Positions 38,795-47,497 of a stretch of 64,000 nt of DNA are shown here, one piece after another. The notes under the pieces were generated by a model, which searched no databases, was not told the DNA's origin, and saw nothing but the letters and a program-made list of their open reading frames with translations. Source of the stretch: Gracilinema caldarium DSM 7334 (GTDB lineage Bacteria; Spirochaetota; Spirochaetia; Treponematales; Breznakiellaceae). A program made the position numbers and the translations under genes. The stretch spans positions 1,984,001-2,048,000 of the forward strand of contig NC_015732.1 in the NCBI RefSeq assembly GCF_000219725.1. The letters run 5' to 3'. Every line of letters begins with the position of its first letter. Positions within the stretch are counted from its first letter, which is position 1.

Positions 38795-39850
38795 ATGAGT
38801 CCTAAGCATTTTCATTTATTAGCTCTTATATTTTTCCTATCTACAATACTCTCTTGTGAGCTTACAACTAACCAGTATTCATATTATATTACAGGTAGTA
38901 AGGAAAAGCAGGAAACATTAAAAGAACTATTTCGGCTTCTTAACCGCGAAATGGATCCAGGGGAAGAACAGTTCTCTATTGTAAGAGAAATTGCAAATGA
39001 ACTTTTAAACCAACAAGAATATGCTAGACTCACCAATTTTCTTACTGATTGGGTAACTTCACATCCCAAGGATCCCTTTAACGGTTATCTCCTCTTGATG
39101 GTTGCCTATGCGTATATGAAGCAAGATGCAGGCCCCATAGCGGCGATCTATTTTAACCGTATCCTCACTAAATATCCCGACTTATTAGTGAAGGGAGAAT
39201 CAATCCATTTTCAATGCCTTAAACAACTTATACAACTTGAAAAAAAACCGGAGCACCAGATCCGATATTATAAGGAACTTATTGCCAGATTCCCAGAAAA
39301 AATCGATTTAGGCAATGCTCATTTCATGCTGGCCCAGGCCTATGAAAAAACCGGTGAATGGGATATGGCTATTCAAACCTATTCAAAGTTTTTGCCCTAT
39401 TACAGCTCATCTATTCCGGGTTTTCCCGATGCACTGGGATATGCCATGAAATTGGTAGATTATTATAACTCACCGAAAGATTGGACCTTCGAATCTCTCG
39501 ATAGTCTGGTCAGTGCAGTGAAAAAAGCCCTCGATTCAGGTAGCAGCCGCGAACTGAGAAGACTCCGGGCTAAGGTCAATTTTTTTGCAGTATCCTGGGG
39601 ACAGGATGCGAATCAGCCTGTAGGGATGGATGAATTTAACCTGTCAGATTTTATGGCGGGAAATAGGATACGCTATGCCGATACGGTCGATGCAAGTTCT
39701 AATGCCAACGAAGCCTATCTCAAAACCTGGGGATGGACCCAGCGGATTACAACCTGGTATCTTTATTTTAGAAAAATTTATTTCCCCGCCGATCCTGAAA
39801 TTCACGGACGATGGGAATGGGCTGGGGTCTATTATGGGGAAAAATTCTAA
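38795..39850 (+). CDS. TPR-like lipoprotein upstream of lytic transglycosylase
   Basis: From the ATG at 38795 the protein has 351 residues, with a lipobox at Cys21 (S-T-I-L-S-C). The body has TPR-like helical pairs (GYLLLMVAYAYMKQDAGPIAAIYFNRIL and HFMLAQAYEKTGEWDMAIQTYSKFLPY) and then an unassigned C-terminal domain rich in aromatic residues (ITTWYLYFRKIYFPA). An ATG at 38762 adds 11 residues and cannot be excluded. The stop overlaps the start of the transglycosylase gene by one base (TAATG), so the two are coupled and may work together at the cell wall. Confidence 0.82.
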   Translation: MSPKHFHLLALIFFLSTILSCELTTNQYSYYITGSKEKQETLKELFRLLNREMDPGEEQFSIVREIANELLNQQEYARLTNFLTDWVTSHPKDPFNGYLLLMVAYAYMKQDAGPIAAIYFNRILTKYPDLLVKGESIHFQCLKQLIQLEKKPEHQIRYYKELIARFPEKIDLGNAHFMLAQAYEKTGEWDMAIQTYSKFLPYYSSSIPGFPDALGYAMKLVDYYNSPKDWTFESLDSLVSAVKKALDSGSSRELRRLRAKVNFFAVSWGQDANQPVGMDEFNLSDFMAGNRIRYADTVDASSNANEAYLKTWGWTQRITTWYLYFRKIYFPADPEIHGRWEWAGVYYGEKF

Positions 39851-41259
39851 TGCGATATACAACCATTATCGTAGGTAACATTCTTATTATACTTAATTTT
39901 TCCATCTTTGCTTCAGAGATGCAACCCCTTCATCAACATAATCCACTACAAAGTGAACAATACAGTCCTGCCACCGAAATAGTACGTAGTAACGGTGCAG
40001 CTATAAGAATTAAAATCGATACCGAATACGTCCAGAATGGATTATCCGCCGTTTCAATGAATAAGCTACCCCTAAATTGGCATGGCATGCAGGGTGTAGA
40101 ATTATCTATTCCAGGACTTAATGCACTCCTTACCCAACAGTACATTAAACAGTATACAAGCCCCGCTGGGCTTCAATGGCTTAAGGCTGTTATGAACCGG
40201 GGGAAGGTTTATTTACCTTTAATCCGCAAAGAGGTGGAAGAAATGAACTTGCCCCTTGAATTAGCCTATCTTCCGGTGATAGAAAGTGCATTTCTTCCAA
40301 CCGCGGTAAGCAGATCAGGTGCTGTAGGGTTATGGCAGTTCATGAAAAATAGTATCCATGGATATGGTATGGTTATTGATGAATGGCGGGATGACCGGAG
40401 GGATGTTCTCAAATCAACCCAGGGAGCATTAAAAAAATTACAGGATAATTACCGTTATTTTAAGGATTGGCCCTTAGCTCTTGCAGCCTATAACGCGGGT
40501 CTTGGTGCGGTACAACGGGCGGTGCAGAAGGCTGGTGTAAAAGATTACTGGGTTCTCTGTGAAAAAAAACATCTAAAGAACGAAACCATCCACTATGTTC
40601 CTAAATTCCTTGCTATAGCTTTTATACTTGCCAATCCGAGTAACTATGGGCTAGAGCCAGATTGGACCGAAGCACCCCCGATTGAACGAATACCAGTAGG
40701 GAGAATGGCTGATGTAAAGTTACTCGAAGAAAAAGCAGGTATTGAACAAGGAATTTTAAAGGCCTTAAATCCAGAGCTATACTTCGGTATCACCCCTTCG
40801 GACCCAAATTATCTGCTTAAAGTTCCTGCGGAGTATAAGGAACCAATAGAAAAGCTTCTGCGTAATAAAAATGAAAATCTTATTTTATTTTATTACCACA
40901 CCATTCATTCAGGGGATACCCTGTCAGCCCTTTCACGCCACTATGGGGTCAGTGTTGAACAGATCAAACTGTCAAATCCAGGTATCCAAGACCGGTACCT
41001 AAAGTTGGGGGCAAAAATTAAAATACCTGCTATAAAAAATGTAGGCCCCTATGAACGACCTGCTTTACCAGCCTCATCAATAGCCTTTGAGGGGACCCAT
41101 GTGGTTAAAAAGGGCGAGACCCTTTGGTCTATCGCATTAGCCTATGACGTTGACCCAGAAGTCTTGGCCACAGTAAATGGATTAACACTTTCTTCAATAC
41201 TACGTGAAGGTTATCTACTTAAAACGCCGATAAAAAAGATAGAAAATGGTGGTGAATGA
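39850..41259 (+). CDS. Membrane/periplasmic lytic transglycosylase with two LysM domains
   Basis: The enzyme should cleave peptidoglycan glycan strands. From the ATG at 39850 it has 469 residues: a signal peptide (about 1-21), an SLT domain (about 105-260) with catalytic Glu145 in LPVIESAF and the motif SGAVGLWQFM, and two C-terminal LysM domains (about 347-395, HTIHSGDTLSALS, and 413-455, HVVKKGETLWSIA). The layout is like MltD. The longer frame from 39811 has an unlikely N terminus. Translation is coupled to the lipoprotein upstream. Confidence 0.95.
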   Translation: MRYTTIIVGNILIILNFSIFASEMQPLHQHNPLQSEQYSPATEIVRSNGAAIRIKIDTEYVQNGLSAVSMNKLPLNWHGMQGVELSIPGLNALLTQQYIKQYTSPAGLQWLKAVMNRGKVYLPLIRKEVEEMNLPLELAYLPVIESAFLPTAVSRSGAVGLWQFMKNSIHGYGMVIDEWRDDRRDVLKSTQGALKKLQDNYRYFKDWPLALAAYNAGLGAVQRAVQKAGVKDYWVLCEKKHLKNETIHYVPKFLAIAFILANPSNYGLEPDWTEAPPIERIPVGRMADVKLLEEKAGIEQGILKALNPELYFGITPSDPNYLLKVPAEYKEPIEKLLRNKNENLILFYYHTIHSGDTLSALSRHYGVSVEQIKLSNPGIQDRYLKLGAKIKIPAIKNVGPYERPALPASSIAFEGTHVVKKGETLWSIALAYDVDPEVLATVNGLTLSSILREGYLLKTPIKKIENGGE

Positions 41260-41262
41260 TTC

Positions 41263-42186
41263 ATGAATATGAAAATTGAAATCCTTAGTTTATTCATATG
41301 CATAGGTTTCAACAGTATATTGTCGGCCCAGTCAGAAAGTGCCAAATTCAGTATTGAGCCTGTTCTGCAATGGCATACTATGGAGATTGTCTCTACAGTA
41401 AAGCTTGACATGAACTCAGCAGGATTACAGCTCCCTACCGGTCGGGCCCATGGTGAAGAATTACTTGATGTTGAATTTCCTAGAATTATTTCACCTTACC
41501 TTTTTACTATTCCGATAGATAGTACAACCACTATTGAAATAGCCATTCAACAAGGTCAGCTATCAATATTAGATATAGATAAGTTAGTTAGAACGGCAAC
41601 AAAATTCCCAACTATATTAGATTTAACTAATAATAGCTTAAATCGAAAGATTCTCGTTCCCTTGCAAGAGCTTTTAGCACTTTTAGTTCGTCATCATGTT
41701 CCAGCGACACTACCACATCCACTTGTTACTCAAACTACTAAAGTTTATACCGGCGTTATCATCTTTGCTCAGGAGCGCCTTCCAATTTACGGACGACAGG
41801 ATTCAGCATACTTGAGACCTTGCCTCTTCCCAAAGGTATGGGATACTGAAGGGACTCTTGTGTATGAACGAAATATGGTGTCTCCAGAAATAGCAAAAAC
41901 CCGGGGTATTGCGAAATATACTACAATAGATCAGGTGTTACAGCAGACACCTTCCGGCATCTCCCCTTATCTTCAAGAACTTGTTGGGGATCGTCCCCTT
42001 AAAATACTAGCTGATAAAATATATGGTAAACTCCCCACCGATCCAGTTATCAGTAAAGATGATGCGATTATTTTATATTCCTCAGACAATAACCGCCGGC
42101 TTCTTACCGAAGGCCGGGTGGTTATTGTTTTAGCTCCAGAATTGTTAATACAGACTTTTACTTTTTCAAATACATCGTCTCCTTAA
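41263..42186 (+). CDS. Secreted protein of unknown function
   Basis: The 307-residue protein has an N-terminal signal with an A-like cleavage site (about 22) and a mature part of mixed strands and helices. The C-terminal end has LLTEGRVVIVLAPELLIQTFTF. I do not recognise a family. It starts 3 bases after the transglycosylase stop, with a GGTGGTGA site, so a cell wall role is possible. Its 3' end overlaps the frame of the SppA gene on the other strand by 29 bases. Confidence 0.7.
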   Translation: MNMKIEILSLFICIGFNSILSAQSESAKFSIEPVLQWHTMEIVSTVKLDMNSAGLQLPTGRAHGEELLDVEFPRIISPYLFTIPIDSTTTIEIAIQQGQLSILDIDKLVRTATKFPTILDLTNNSLNRKILVPLQELLALLVRHHVPATLPHPLVTQTTKVYTGVIIFAQERLPIYGRQDSAYLRPCLFPKVWDTEGTLVYERNMVSPEIAKTRGIAKYTTIDQVLQQTPSGISPYLQELVGDRPLKILADKIYGKLPTDPVISKDDAIILYSSDNNRRLLTEGRVVIVLAPELLIQTFTFSNTSSP

Positions 42187-44741
42187 GACTATTTTCCTGA
42201 AGTATTTCAAGAATTTCGAAAGGCATAAGAGCTTGAACAGTACCATTGCTGGCAATTCTTGATGCAACAGTTTCAGAAAAACAATACATAGAAAGTGGAG
42301 TAAAAGATGGATTATGAATATCTTCTATAAACTTTATTATATGTAGAGTAAGTTTGTTTGCAAGCAGTGTTGTCTGGTTTATCAGAGCTAAAAAGGCTGC
42401 AAAGGGATTAGGATAGGGGTATTCATCGATTATTACATCTGCATCATCAGCTAATTTAAGGGCTGCTTTTAACGCTTTGATAGTACTAGTAAGGCTTTGT
42501 ATTCCATCTATCAAACCATTATTAACTGCATCATTACCTGCATAGATGCGTCCTTGGGCGAGACTTTCAACCTTTTCTTGAGGCATATTTCGCCCTTCTG
42601 CTACCTTGCTCACAAATTCATTATAGAGCTCTAAAATCCACTGATGATACTCTTCAACTTCCTGAGAATTCAAATCTCTATAAGGAAGTATTAAGCCGGC
42701 CTGCAAATCCGCATGACTGCCTCGCTTAAGAAGATCTATGGAAAGACCTAATTTATCATTCAATCCTGCATCATAGAACCATGAAGCAATAACACCAATA
42801 GAACCAGTTATGGTATAGGGAGTTGCATAGATTCTTGAACCATACATGGAAACCCAATACCCACCCGAACCAGCTACAGAACCCATAGATATATAAACAG
42901 GTTTTCGTTCTTTTGCCTTTTTTACAGCCTCAGCAACATAATCCGCCGCTACTGCATCACCACCTGGAGAGTTAACCCGAAGAATTATACCCTTGACTTT
43001 GTTATCATTCCCGAGCTGATTGATAATTTTAGCAAGTAATCGTGCATTCATACCCCCATCCAGAGATGTGGAACCATTAGCGTATACAATAGCTATATGA
43101 GGTGGTTCAGCCCAAACATCTTGTTGAATAGAAGGAGCTTTATAAAATGCAGCAGCAGCAATTACTAAATTTGTGTTTTTTTGGAATAGACTGAGTTTCA
43201 TATCTCCATAAATTTGTATCAACATTTCATTTCCTGAGAGTTCATTGATAGCCCTCTGTATTGCCTCTTCCCTTCCAAAGTAATCAACAAGATTAAATTT
43301 CTTAGCTTCCTTGGGACTTATTAGAAAATTGGATTCTAACAAGGTATTAAATTGATCCTCGGTAATTTTTCGATCATGAATAATAGAAGCTTTTGTAGTG
43401 GTGAAAATACTATCTAAATAAGCATCATATTGTTCTCGGTCTGCAGAGGAAAAACTATCCCGGCTTATAGGATTCTGCAGCAGATTTATAAATTAAATAT
43501 CGTAATTCTCTAAATCCGACCCCGAGTTTTTCCAGGGTATGTTTAAAATATCCTCGTCTTACTACATAGCCATCAAAATTCAATATTCCCTGGTTATCCA
43601 TGACTATACGATCTGCTACCGTCACAAGGGCATAAACATCGAAGGAGGGCCGTTCTATAAAAGCAATAATCTTTTTACCCGATGTCTTAAAATCCTCAAG
43701 AGCTTTACGCAATTCCCATAGATCACTTCTCGAAGCATATAGAGAACTTGTATTCAGAATGAGCCCTCCAACAGTAGGATCATTTTTAGCTGATGCAATG
43801 GTACTTAACACATCAAAAAGAGAAGAATACCTATTAAAAATCTCAGATGATGCTGAAAGGTTTTCGAGGGCTAGTTCTACATAATATTTGGGGGTTGTAG
43901 AAGAGGTCATAGCAAATCCTGCTTTGTTTTTCACAAAGGAGATGCCTACACCAGTTTGGAGAGAACCACTAAAATCTTCTTGTGAAGATGCAAGAGAACT
44001 TCCTAATCCGAGATTCCCATATCTTAAGTTCAATCCAAGGGCAACAGATCCAGAGCTCAGATATTTTCCATAAACTTCCACGCCCCGAACAGGCACAAAA
44101 CTGAGTCCAGCTAGCCACTTCTGCGCGTCTTGATCGGTATACGAATTTTGAGCAGACCATGCACCAAAGACAGTAAGGCGATTAGTGCCAAAGGGTCTCA
44201 AACCACCATCGATTAGGAGGTTCCAATTTGGCGAGGTATAATTTTGTGTAATCGTTATACCGAGGGATGTTTGGGGAATTGGTCTGAGAAGGAAGCCAAC
44301 CTGAAATGCATGAAAATAATCATACATTGAATGATTCTCATTAAAAAGACTTACATTGGAGAATCCAAAGGCTATACTACGGTTCCCACCTGAAATGCCA
44401 AAGTGAAAATCAATCTGAGTAGAATGATCAGCAAGAGACAACACATTTGCTCCCGCCAATAAGCCAGGATCCGCATAGAAATATCCCCATTGGGTAATAT
44501 CCGTAAGTTCTTTGGTATCTGCAAATGCCCATAGATCAAGTTGATTACTAAGCGATGGCATTGTTGCACCTAGAGCCGGATTGATAAAGCTCCCCACTGC
44601 ATCATTTTGAACACTCGCGGTGGTTCCCATTTTTTCTAATATACTAAAGGGATGTATAAATATTTCCTGAGCGATTAGTTGTAATGCTTCAAGGGGTATT
44701 AGCAACATTACCAATGCCAGCCACTTCTTCAAAATATTCAT
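42158..44741 (-). pseudogene. Beta-barrel/SppA signal peptide peptidase fusion, frameshifted
   Basis: Part 1 (44741 to 43455) has a signal peptide, a barrel-like domain (about 30-290, with an NPAL turn and many alternating strands, like PorV/UPF0164 proteins) and the first S49 repeat, ending in YKSAAESY, the catalytic lysine motif of the long SppA class. Part 2 (about 43464 down to 42158) continues with SRDSFSSADREQ and holds the catalytic Ser in GSVAGSGGYW. Removing one A/T at 43465-43466 joins both into about 860 residues without a gap. With the extra base, translation ends at a TAG (43455-43457). The AAGGAG site fits the ATG at 44741. Either a real pseudogene or a one-base sequencing error. 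Confidence 0.85.
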
Positions 44742-44802
44742 GGGTACTCCTTCAATCAATAATAGTAAATAATACATACTAAAACATATCATATCCTAAA
44801 AT

Positions 44803-44866: not shown

Positions 44867-47437
44867 TTATCTAAATAAAAGCCCATCTCCATTCCGGTCT
44901 ACCAACACCTCAGAACCTTCCTTGTAGCGGCCGGAGATGATTTCCCGGGCCAGCGGATTTTCCAGTTCCGCCTGGATGGTCCGCTTAAGGGGCCGGGCAC
45001 CGTACAGGGGATCGTAGCCCCGCTCTGCCAGGAAGGACTTGGCCGCATCGGTAACCGTGAGCCGAATCTTGCGATCCTCGAGCCGTTGGGCCAGACGATT
45101 CAGCTGGATATCCACAATCTTGTGAATCTCAGCCTGTCCAAGCCGGTTAAAGATGACCGTTTCATCAATCCGGTTCAGGAACTCGGGCCTAAATGAAGCC
45201 TTAAGAAGTTCCTGCAGGGCACCACGAATCTCTTCGGTGCTCCTGGCGTTCAGGATCAGGTCCGAACCCAGGTTGCTCGTCATTATGATAATCACGTTCC
45301 TGAAGTCCACTACCCTGCCCTGGCCGTCGGTCAGGCGTCCATCATCCAGAATCTGGAGGAACACGTTGAACACATCCGGATGGGCCTTCTCGATTTCGTC
45401 GAAGAGGACCACACTGTAGGGCCTGCGGCGGACCGCTTCGGTAAGCTGGCCCCCCTGCTCATAGCCCACATAGCCCGGAGGGGCACCGATGAGGCGGCTT
45501 ACGGTGTGTTTTTCACCGTACTCGCTCATATCAATCCTGGTCAAAGCCTTTTCCTCGTTAAAGAGGAATTCTGCCAGGGTCTTAGCCAGCTCGGTTTTAC
45601 CTACACCGGTGGGTCCCAGGAAGAGGAAGGACCCCAGGGGCCGGGCGGCATCGCTTAAGCCCGCCTTGTTGCGCCGGATGGCATCGGCCACGGCTTGCAC
45701 CGCCGCATCCTGACCGACCACCCGTTTTTCGAGAACCTTTTCCAGTTCCAGATACTTCTGCAATTCGCTGGAAAGCATCTTGGATACGGGAATACCGGTC
45801 CAGCTCGATACAACGGCGGCGATGTCCTCTTCGCTCACCTCTTCGCGGAGGAGGCTTACCTCGCCCCGTTTAGCCTCCATGCGGTCGGAAATTTCCTTTA
45901 GCTTCCGCTGGGCTTCGGGGATGAGACCGTATTTAATTTCTGCGGCCTTATTCAGGTTGCCCTCCCGCTCGTAACGGGCTTCCTCAATTTTAAGCTCTTC
46001 TATTCTCTGCTTCAGGAGCCGCAGTTCCTGGATATCCTTCCGTTCACTTTCCCAGCGGGCCCGCATGGCGTCCCGTTCGGCGGTGAGGTCGGCGATTTCC
46101 TTTTCCAGTTTCTGTCGCCGTTCTACCGAAGCGGGGTCGTCTTCCCGCTGTAGGGCCTGCCGTTCTATGGAAAGCTGTAGGAGTTTCCGTTCCAGCTTGT
46201 CCAATTCGGTAGGACGGCTGTCCAGTTCCATCTTAAGGCGGCTCGCCGCCTCATCCACCAGGTCGATGGCCTTATCGGGGAGGAAGCGGCTGGTGATATA
46301 CCGGGTCGACAGGGTCGCCGCGGCCACCAGGGCTTCATCCTTAATGCGCACCCCATGGTGCACTTCGTAGCGTTCCTTAAGCCCCCGCAGGATGGCGATG
46401 GTGTCCTCTACGGAAGGTTCGGCGCAGTAAACCTGCTGGAAACGCCGCTCCAGGGCCGCATCCTTTTCGATATACTTGCGGTATTCGTCCAGGGTAGTAG
46501 CCCCGATACAGCGAAGTTCACCCCGGGCCAGGGCAGGCTTAAGGAGGTTGCTTGCATCGGTGGCACCCTCGGCGGCTCCCGCCCCCACAAGGGTATGGAG
46601 TTCATCAATAAAGAGGATGATTCTTCCCTCTGCGGCCTGTACTTCATGGATAACTGCCTTTAGGCGTTCCTCGAATTCGCCGCGGAATTTTGCACCCGCC
46701 ACCAGGGCTCCCAGGTCCAGGGCGAGGAGCCGTTTATTTTTAAGCCCCTCGGGGACGTCCCCTTCGACAATGCGTCGGGCGAGGCCTTCTACAATGGCGG
46801 TTTTACCGACCCCTGGTTCACCGATGAGGACCGGGTTGTTTTTGGTGCGCCGGGAGAGGACCTGCATTACCCGGCGGATTTCCTCATCCCGGCCAATGAC
46901 CGGGTCCAGTTTTTCCTGCCGTGCCAGGGCGGTAAGGTCCCGGCAGTATTTGTCCAGGACCTGGTACTTTTCTTCCGGGTTCTGGTCCGTTACCCGGGCG
47001 TTACCCCTGACCGATTTCAGGGCCGAAAGGATGGCCTCTTTGGTGATGCCGTTCCGCCTGAGTATATCCGTGGCGGGGCCTTCGGCCTGGGTCATGGCGA
47101 TAAGGATGTGTTCGGTGGAAACAAAATCATCCTTAAGGGATGCGGCTTCCGCTTCTGCCTTGGCAAGGACCTTGCTTGCGGCGGGCGAGAAGTACAGCTG
47201 GGCCGCCTCTCCGTATACCTTTGGTTTGGAAGCCACCAATTTACGGGCTTCCTGTAAAATTAGTTCCGGGTCAGCACCAATTTTTTCGATTATCGGTGCG
47301 ACAATGCCCCCTTCCTGCTCCACCAGGGCAAGCAGGATATGTTCCAGTTCCACCTGGGTCTGGTCATTTTTCTGGGCGATGCTGGAGGCCTCCTGGAGCG
47401 CCTCCTGGGCTTTTATGGTAAGTTTGTCGTAGTTCAT
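44867..47437 (-). CDS. clpB: Chaperone ClpB (disaggregase)
   Basis: ClpB pulls proteins out of aggregates with the Hsp70 system. From the ATG at 47437 it has 856 residues: a two-part Clp-N domain (1-145), a first AAA+ domain (Walker [24 protein letters not shown]), the coiled-coil M domain (about 405-520), and a second AAA+ domain (Walker A GPTGVGKT, Walker [16 protein letters not shown]). The frame from 47485 adds 16 residues that do not match the family. The upstream gap has two DnaA boxes. No clear CIRCE element is seen. Confidence 0.97.
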
Positions 47438-47477
47438 GTCTATAAGATACTCATGGAAACGCCCTATCGGCAAGCAG

Positions 47478-47497
47478 TTATCCACAGATTATGCACA
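47478..47497. promoter_or_regulatory. Two tandem DnaA boxes upstream of clpB
   Basis: TTATCCACA (47478-47486) and TTATGCACA (47489-47497) both match TTATNCACA exactly and point the same way with 2 bases between. They lie 41 to 60 bases before the clpB ATG. DnaA could bind and control clpB. There is no dnaA gene, no third box and no AT-rich unwinding region, so this is not a clear origin. Confidence 0.55.

Follow-up and report, generated by a model that had tools for sequence, protein, structure and literature searches.

Our analysis of a 64,000-nucleotide window (the whole stretch of DNA studied) from the hot-spring spirochaete Gracilinema caldarium revealed an interrupted gene whose intact relatives encode, on one polypeptide, a signal peptide, a 14-stranded β-barrel and the two S49 domains of an SppA-type peptidase. 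This fusion is an old and widespread conserved architecture in spirochaetes and in some Bacteroidota. It recurs far beyond chance and is no accident of assembly, yet it is not rare. Judging from the predicted fold and the signal peptide, the family quite probably represents an SppA anchored in the outer membrane, with S49 domains that would face the periplasm and trim peptides at that membrane. Textbook accounts place SppA at the inner membrane, where it removes signal peptides after their cleavage, and only few outer membrane-bound proteases are, to our knowledge, known in these phyla. If our interpretation is correct, many diderm bacteria hold an SppA-type peptidase at their outer membrane, and an enzyme would join the list of cargo carried by FadL-type barrels, next to the substrate shuttle of PorV and the scaffold of BamG. 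The database name “signal peptide peptidase SppA” conceals this likely relocation. We found no description of an SppA with a barrel in the open-access literature, which misses most subscription journals, and the architecture is apparently undescribed so far.

An interrupted barrel-peptidase gene in Gracilinema caldarium

All parts of the gene are encoded on the minus strand. The first open reading frame (43455-44792, start used at 44741, stop codon at 43455-43457) covers the signal peptide, the hatch, the barrel and the beginning of the first S49 domain. As read from the sequence, the signal peptide comprises residues 1 to about 24 (44670..44741) without a lipobox cysteine, and a hydrophobic N-terminus is common to every aligned homologue. 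It is followed by a hatch-like segment with an invariant Asn-Pro (residues 25-65, 44547..44669; NPA codons at 44574-44582), which was delimited from the model helices and the alignment, and by a 14-stranded barrel of the FadL/PorV fold (residues 66-271, 43929..44546), predicted by AlphaFold2 and structural superposition. Signal peptide, short hatch and barrel together make up the N-terminal 271 residues. The initial portion of S49 domain 1 (residues 303-428, 43458..43835), which was assigned by Pfam, TIGR00705 and alignment to the structure 3bez, contains the catalytic Lys419 (codon 43485-43487). Beyond the stretch in which the frame changes (43445..43485, intact in relatives), a second frame (42161..43444, stop codon at 42158-42160) encodes the remainder of domain 1 and the whole of S49 domain 2, including the catalytic Ser (codon 42866-42868), as recognized by Pfam and TIGR00706.

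Both pieces were identified as S49 by Pfam (1.9e-5 for the first frame and 3.9e-40 for the second). TIGR00705 matched the first frame with 2.5e-21 and TIGR00706 the second with 175 bits over its cut-off, and S49/SppA was the only assignment that Pfam and NCBIfam gave for these pieces. In intact relatives, the two Pfam S49 stretches lie on one chain, whereas they are divided over two frames in G. caldarium. Several fusions scored 282-344 bits on TIGR00705, one of them above the cut-off of 311. Almost the entire peptidase is covered by the match of the fusion profile to E. coli SppA 3bez (E 1.6e-126), in which Lys and Ser line up, and both residues are invariant in a 22-member alignment (K419 and S624 in L004), which agrees with a preliminary description of the locus that had noted them in place. 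As in SppA/protease IV 67K (E. coli 3bez/3bf0; MEROPS S49; TIGR00705), there are two S49 domains, the first with the Lys and the second with the Ser. However, the N-terminal inner-membrane anchor helix of SppA 67K (S49A) is absent, and a cleavable-type signal peptide followed by the 14-stranded barrel stands in front instead. The protein is an SppA-type peptidase with a different anchor rather than a standard SppA. Both halves are under purifying selection (dN 0.26-0.31, dS saturated or above 2.5).

The reading frame shifts between 43485 and about 43445, directly past the catalytic Lys, and this shift is missing from all relatives. Moreover, we found no S49 gene other than the interrupted one in the closed G. 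caldarium genome (3,239,340 bases). Within the family of G. caldarium, at least 20 genomes lack any S49 and 11 contain one; a lineage-wide loss of S49 is in progress in this family. These findings favour the reading that the G. caldarium locus is simply a pseudogene from which nothing is made, which we consider rather likely. The genome has been reported to contain 80 pseudogenes at an error rate below 1 in 100,000 (PMC3739177), so a true mutation is somewhat more likely than a sequencing error. However, 430 codons without a further stop follow the break and both halves are conserved as in intact relatives, which argues that the break is either very young or a sequencing error. The gene was probably inactivated recently, or else the sequence contains an error, and a pseudogene at this locus is without bearing on the wider family. 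Because the Lys precedes the break by 11 residues, both catalytic residues are still encoded, and two polypeptides (one with the barrel and the Lys half, the other with the Ser half) might be made by design or joined by a programmed frameshift. This is highly improbable, given the single open frame in all three congeneric genomes and in a further genome of the family (G018), and a known shift signal was not seen by eye.

Upstream on the same strand lies clpB (44867..47485), which beyond G. caldarium adjoins the fusion gene only in two congeneric genomes (G001 and G003) and in G018; clpB is therefore probably without functional linkage. A gene-neighbourhood comparison at 17 fusion loci revealed no widely recurring neighbour. 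On the plus strand, 39811-41259 encodes a lytic-transglycosylase-like protein with two LysM-like repeats; this gene and its neighbours show conserved synteny within the genus and with G018.

Distribution and probable loss of the fusion

Three other genomes of the genus (G001-G003) and G018 carry the parts in identical order on one uninterrupted open reading frame of 853-875 aa. We surveyed Spirochaetota, Bacteroidota and Verrucomicrobiota and detected an intact fusion in about 66 of the 393 Spirochaetota genomes sampled, as counted with a 23-barrel profile (E <1e-10, match within an open frame no shorter than 779 aa). The S49 motif TGS[IVL]G[VI] is present in all 29 fetched Spirochaetota fusion loci, and each of those scanned with Pfam showed two S49 stretches. 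Ten of the 148 Bacteroidota genomes also contain the fusion (four checked by Pfam). It was found in none of the 115 Verrucomicrobiota genomes, which is weak evidence of absence without a positive control in that phylum. A contig scan of named genomes yielded S49 relatives without a barrel only. The fusion is thus not the peculiarity of one gene that the preliminary description had implied, and the common single-gene homologues refute the view that the two parts are always encoded separately. Carriers include G393 and G092, which we take to be Spirochaeta smaragdinae and Turneriella parva, respectively. These two are type strains available in culture, and their intact versions make the idea of a relocated SppA testable at the bench.

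We built a tree from 66 two-domain peptidases by a quick method and with a midpoint root only; the fused and unfused labels require three changes on it. Barrel-less SppAs from the family of G. caldarium (L008-L011) nest within a starred clade that also contains fused proteins; this fits, and suggests, a loss of the barrel in their lineage. In these four proteins, a signal peptide is present and an anchor helix is not evident. One of them (L011) carries a lipobox-like MAAC, and here a lipid may have replaced the anchor. Several genomes contain, next to the fusion, an SppA with a single domain and about 320 aa (e.g. G046), so that one of the pair may serve the inner and the other the outer membrane; elsewhere, the fusion is the sole S49 gene.

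Fold and family of the barrel

A model of the G. caldarium barrel from 37 aligned relatives (AlphaFold2, pLDDT 83, pTM 0.79) comprises 14 strands after three short helices (model residues 7-13, 24-28 and 33-36), and thereby bears out the barrel domain proposed to precede both S49 repeats. Superposition by VIA-align gave Z scores of 20-22 with FadL, TodX and PorV of type 9 secretion, including two PorV chains (8gl6_F, Z 21.8; 6h3i_F, Z 21.3; model residues 1-252), and of 18-19 with BamG (9n2d_B, Z 19.1). Even the top barrel outside the FadL/PorV family scored below 15, as did those of the OmpG type. Foldseek alone ranked general porins first (TM about 0.4), but VIA-align clearly favoured FadL/PorV instead. 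Furthermore, the predicted barrel has the features that define the FadL/PorV superfamily, namely 14 strands, an N-terminal hatch and the Asn-Pro-Ala motif. N30 and P31 of the hatch are invariant across the 37 rows and the third position is Ala or Val. Strand number, hatch and motif are shared with the FadL/TodX channels (PF03349), which are 370-440 residues long in contrast to about 250 for the fused barrel, and a sequence search of the PDB with the barrel gave no match. A full-length prediction of barrel plus peptidase from a four-sequence alignment was poor (pLDDT 38), with a mere hint of the 14 strands.

Pfam gave no match on the fused barrels, which do not reach the gathering cut-off of UPF0164 (PF03687). 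This cut-off of 21.4 bits was exceeded only by two profile relatives, L120 (27.7) and L121 (23.1). The fused-barrel profile also reaches stand-alone spirochaete barrels of about 290 aa, and a profile-profile comparison matched the fused and stand-alone barrels with 98% probability (E 2.8e-13). One of the stand-alone barrels scored 79.7 bits on NCBIfam PorV_fam (E 2.9e-22, cut-off 90), and another exceeds the UPF0164 cut-off. The initial label “PorV/UPF0164-like” is correct at the superfamily level, and the fused barrel itself belongs to no Pfam family. It shares the fold, the Asn-Pro hatch motif and profile similarity with the stand-alone barrels of the PorV/PorQ family and UPF0164 (PF03687, NF033709), from which it differs by shorter loops and hatch, the lack of a direct Pfam match and the C-terminal peptidase. 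A textbook β-signal in the last strand occurs only in the genus of G. caldarium, and an internal β-signal was dropped as a mark of the family.

Proposed placement and role of the fusion protein

On the side of the barrel opposite the termini, the loops have median lengths of 2, 8, 8, 11, 7, 4 and 10 residues, compared with 0, 3, 5, 7, 2 and 2 on the side of the termini. Based on the even strand number, the longer far-side loops and the FadL fold, we infer that both barrel ends are periplasmic. Turns on the peptidase side are more conserved (mean divergence score 0.351 versus 0.250, p 5e-5). Conservation across the barrel peaks in two Arg-Pro turns on this side, without which the p value is 0.16, and an Arg-Pro turn of this kind is also present in stand-alone barrels.

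We propose that the signal peptide exports the chain and that the N-terminal barrel would insert into the outer membrane. The two S49 domains would thereby come to lie in the periplasm and assemble in the manner of SppA, whose 67K type forms a tetrameric bowl, so that the first domain's Lys and the second domain's Ser could form the dyad. The barrel would take over from the inner-membrane helix as the anchor, placing the peptidase beneath the outer membrane and possibly feeding it. Candidate substrates would be outer membrane-associated peptides to be trimmed or degraded, for example pieces of stalled or misfolded outer membrane proteins, or alternatively hydrophobic peptides arriving through the barrel or clients of an outer membrane machine. 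The fold and the signal peptide support the suggestion of the preliminary description that the barrel may anchor or guide an SppA-type protease at the outer membrane. The membrane location, orientation, oligomeric state, activity and substrate of the protein are inferred. The four relatives L008-L011, which carry the same peptidase without a barrel, count against such anchoring.

Among the solved structures nearest in fold are FadL, TodX and CymD, all of which form channels for hydrophobic molecules. Together with the invariant Asn-Pro of the hatch and with the opening of SppA, which points to the membrane, this raises the idea of an importer in which a FadL-like channel would pass external hydrophobic peptides to the peptidase bowl, as a unit for nutrient uptake and digestion. 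However, the loops on the extracellular side are very short and show little conservation, and in PorV and BamG the same fold acts as a scaffold with no known role in transport (PMC12578637, PMC12611786); we regard import as unlikely. The presence of PorV and BamG in the group of best matches could instead indicate that the barrel tethers the peptidase to BAM or to a secretion translocon for quality control of the substrates handled there. In the Bacteroidota BAM, BamG is a subunit from the FadL family (PMC12578637, PMC12611786) and, like the fused barrel in our proposal, uses the FadL fold as an outer membrane scaffold, but it is a stand-alone subunit without an enzyme domain. Since fold similarity is no proof of binding and the genes of neither machine neighbour the fusion at the 17 loci, such docking appears unlikely. 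Anchoring beneath the outer membrane is the interpretation that we prefer. More tentatively, though plausibly, the fusions could form an ancient class of peptidases in which a FadL/PorV barrel hands membrane-associated or incoming peptides to the SppA below, paralleling the clearance at the inner membrane.

PorV/UPF0164-like barrels are also fused to other partners. Four proteins of 1187-1233 aa from deep Spirochaetota genomes (L121, 792-4352; L122, 478-4176; L123, 524-4147; L124, 1142-4726) combine such a barrel with a long TPR array, which is presumably periplasmic.
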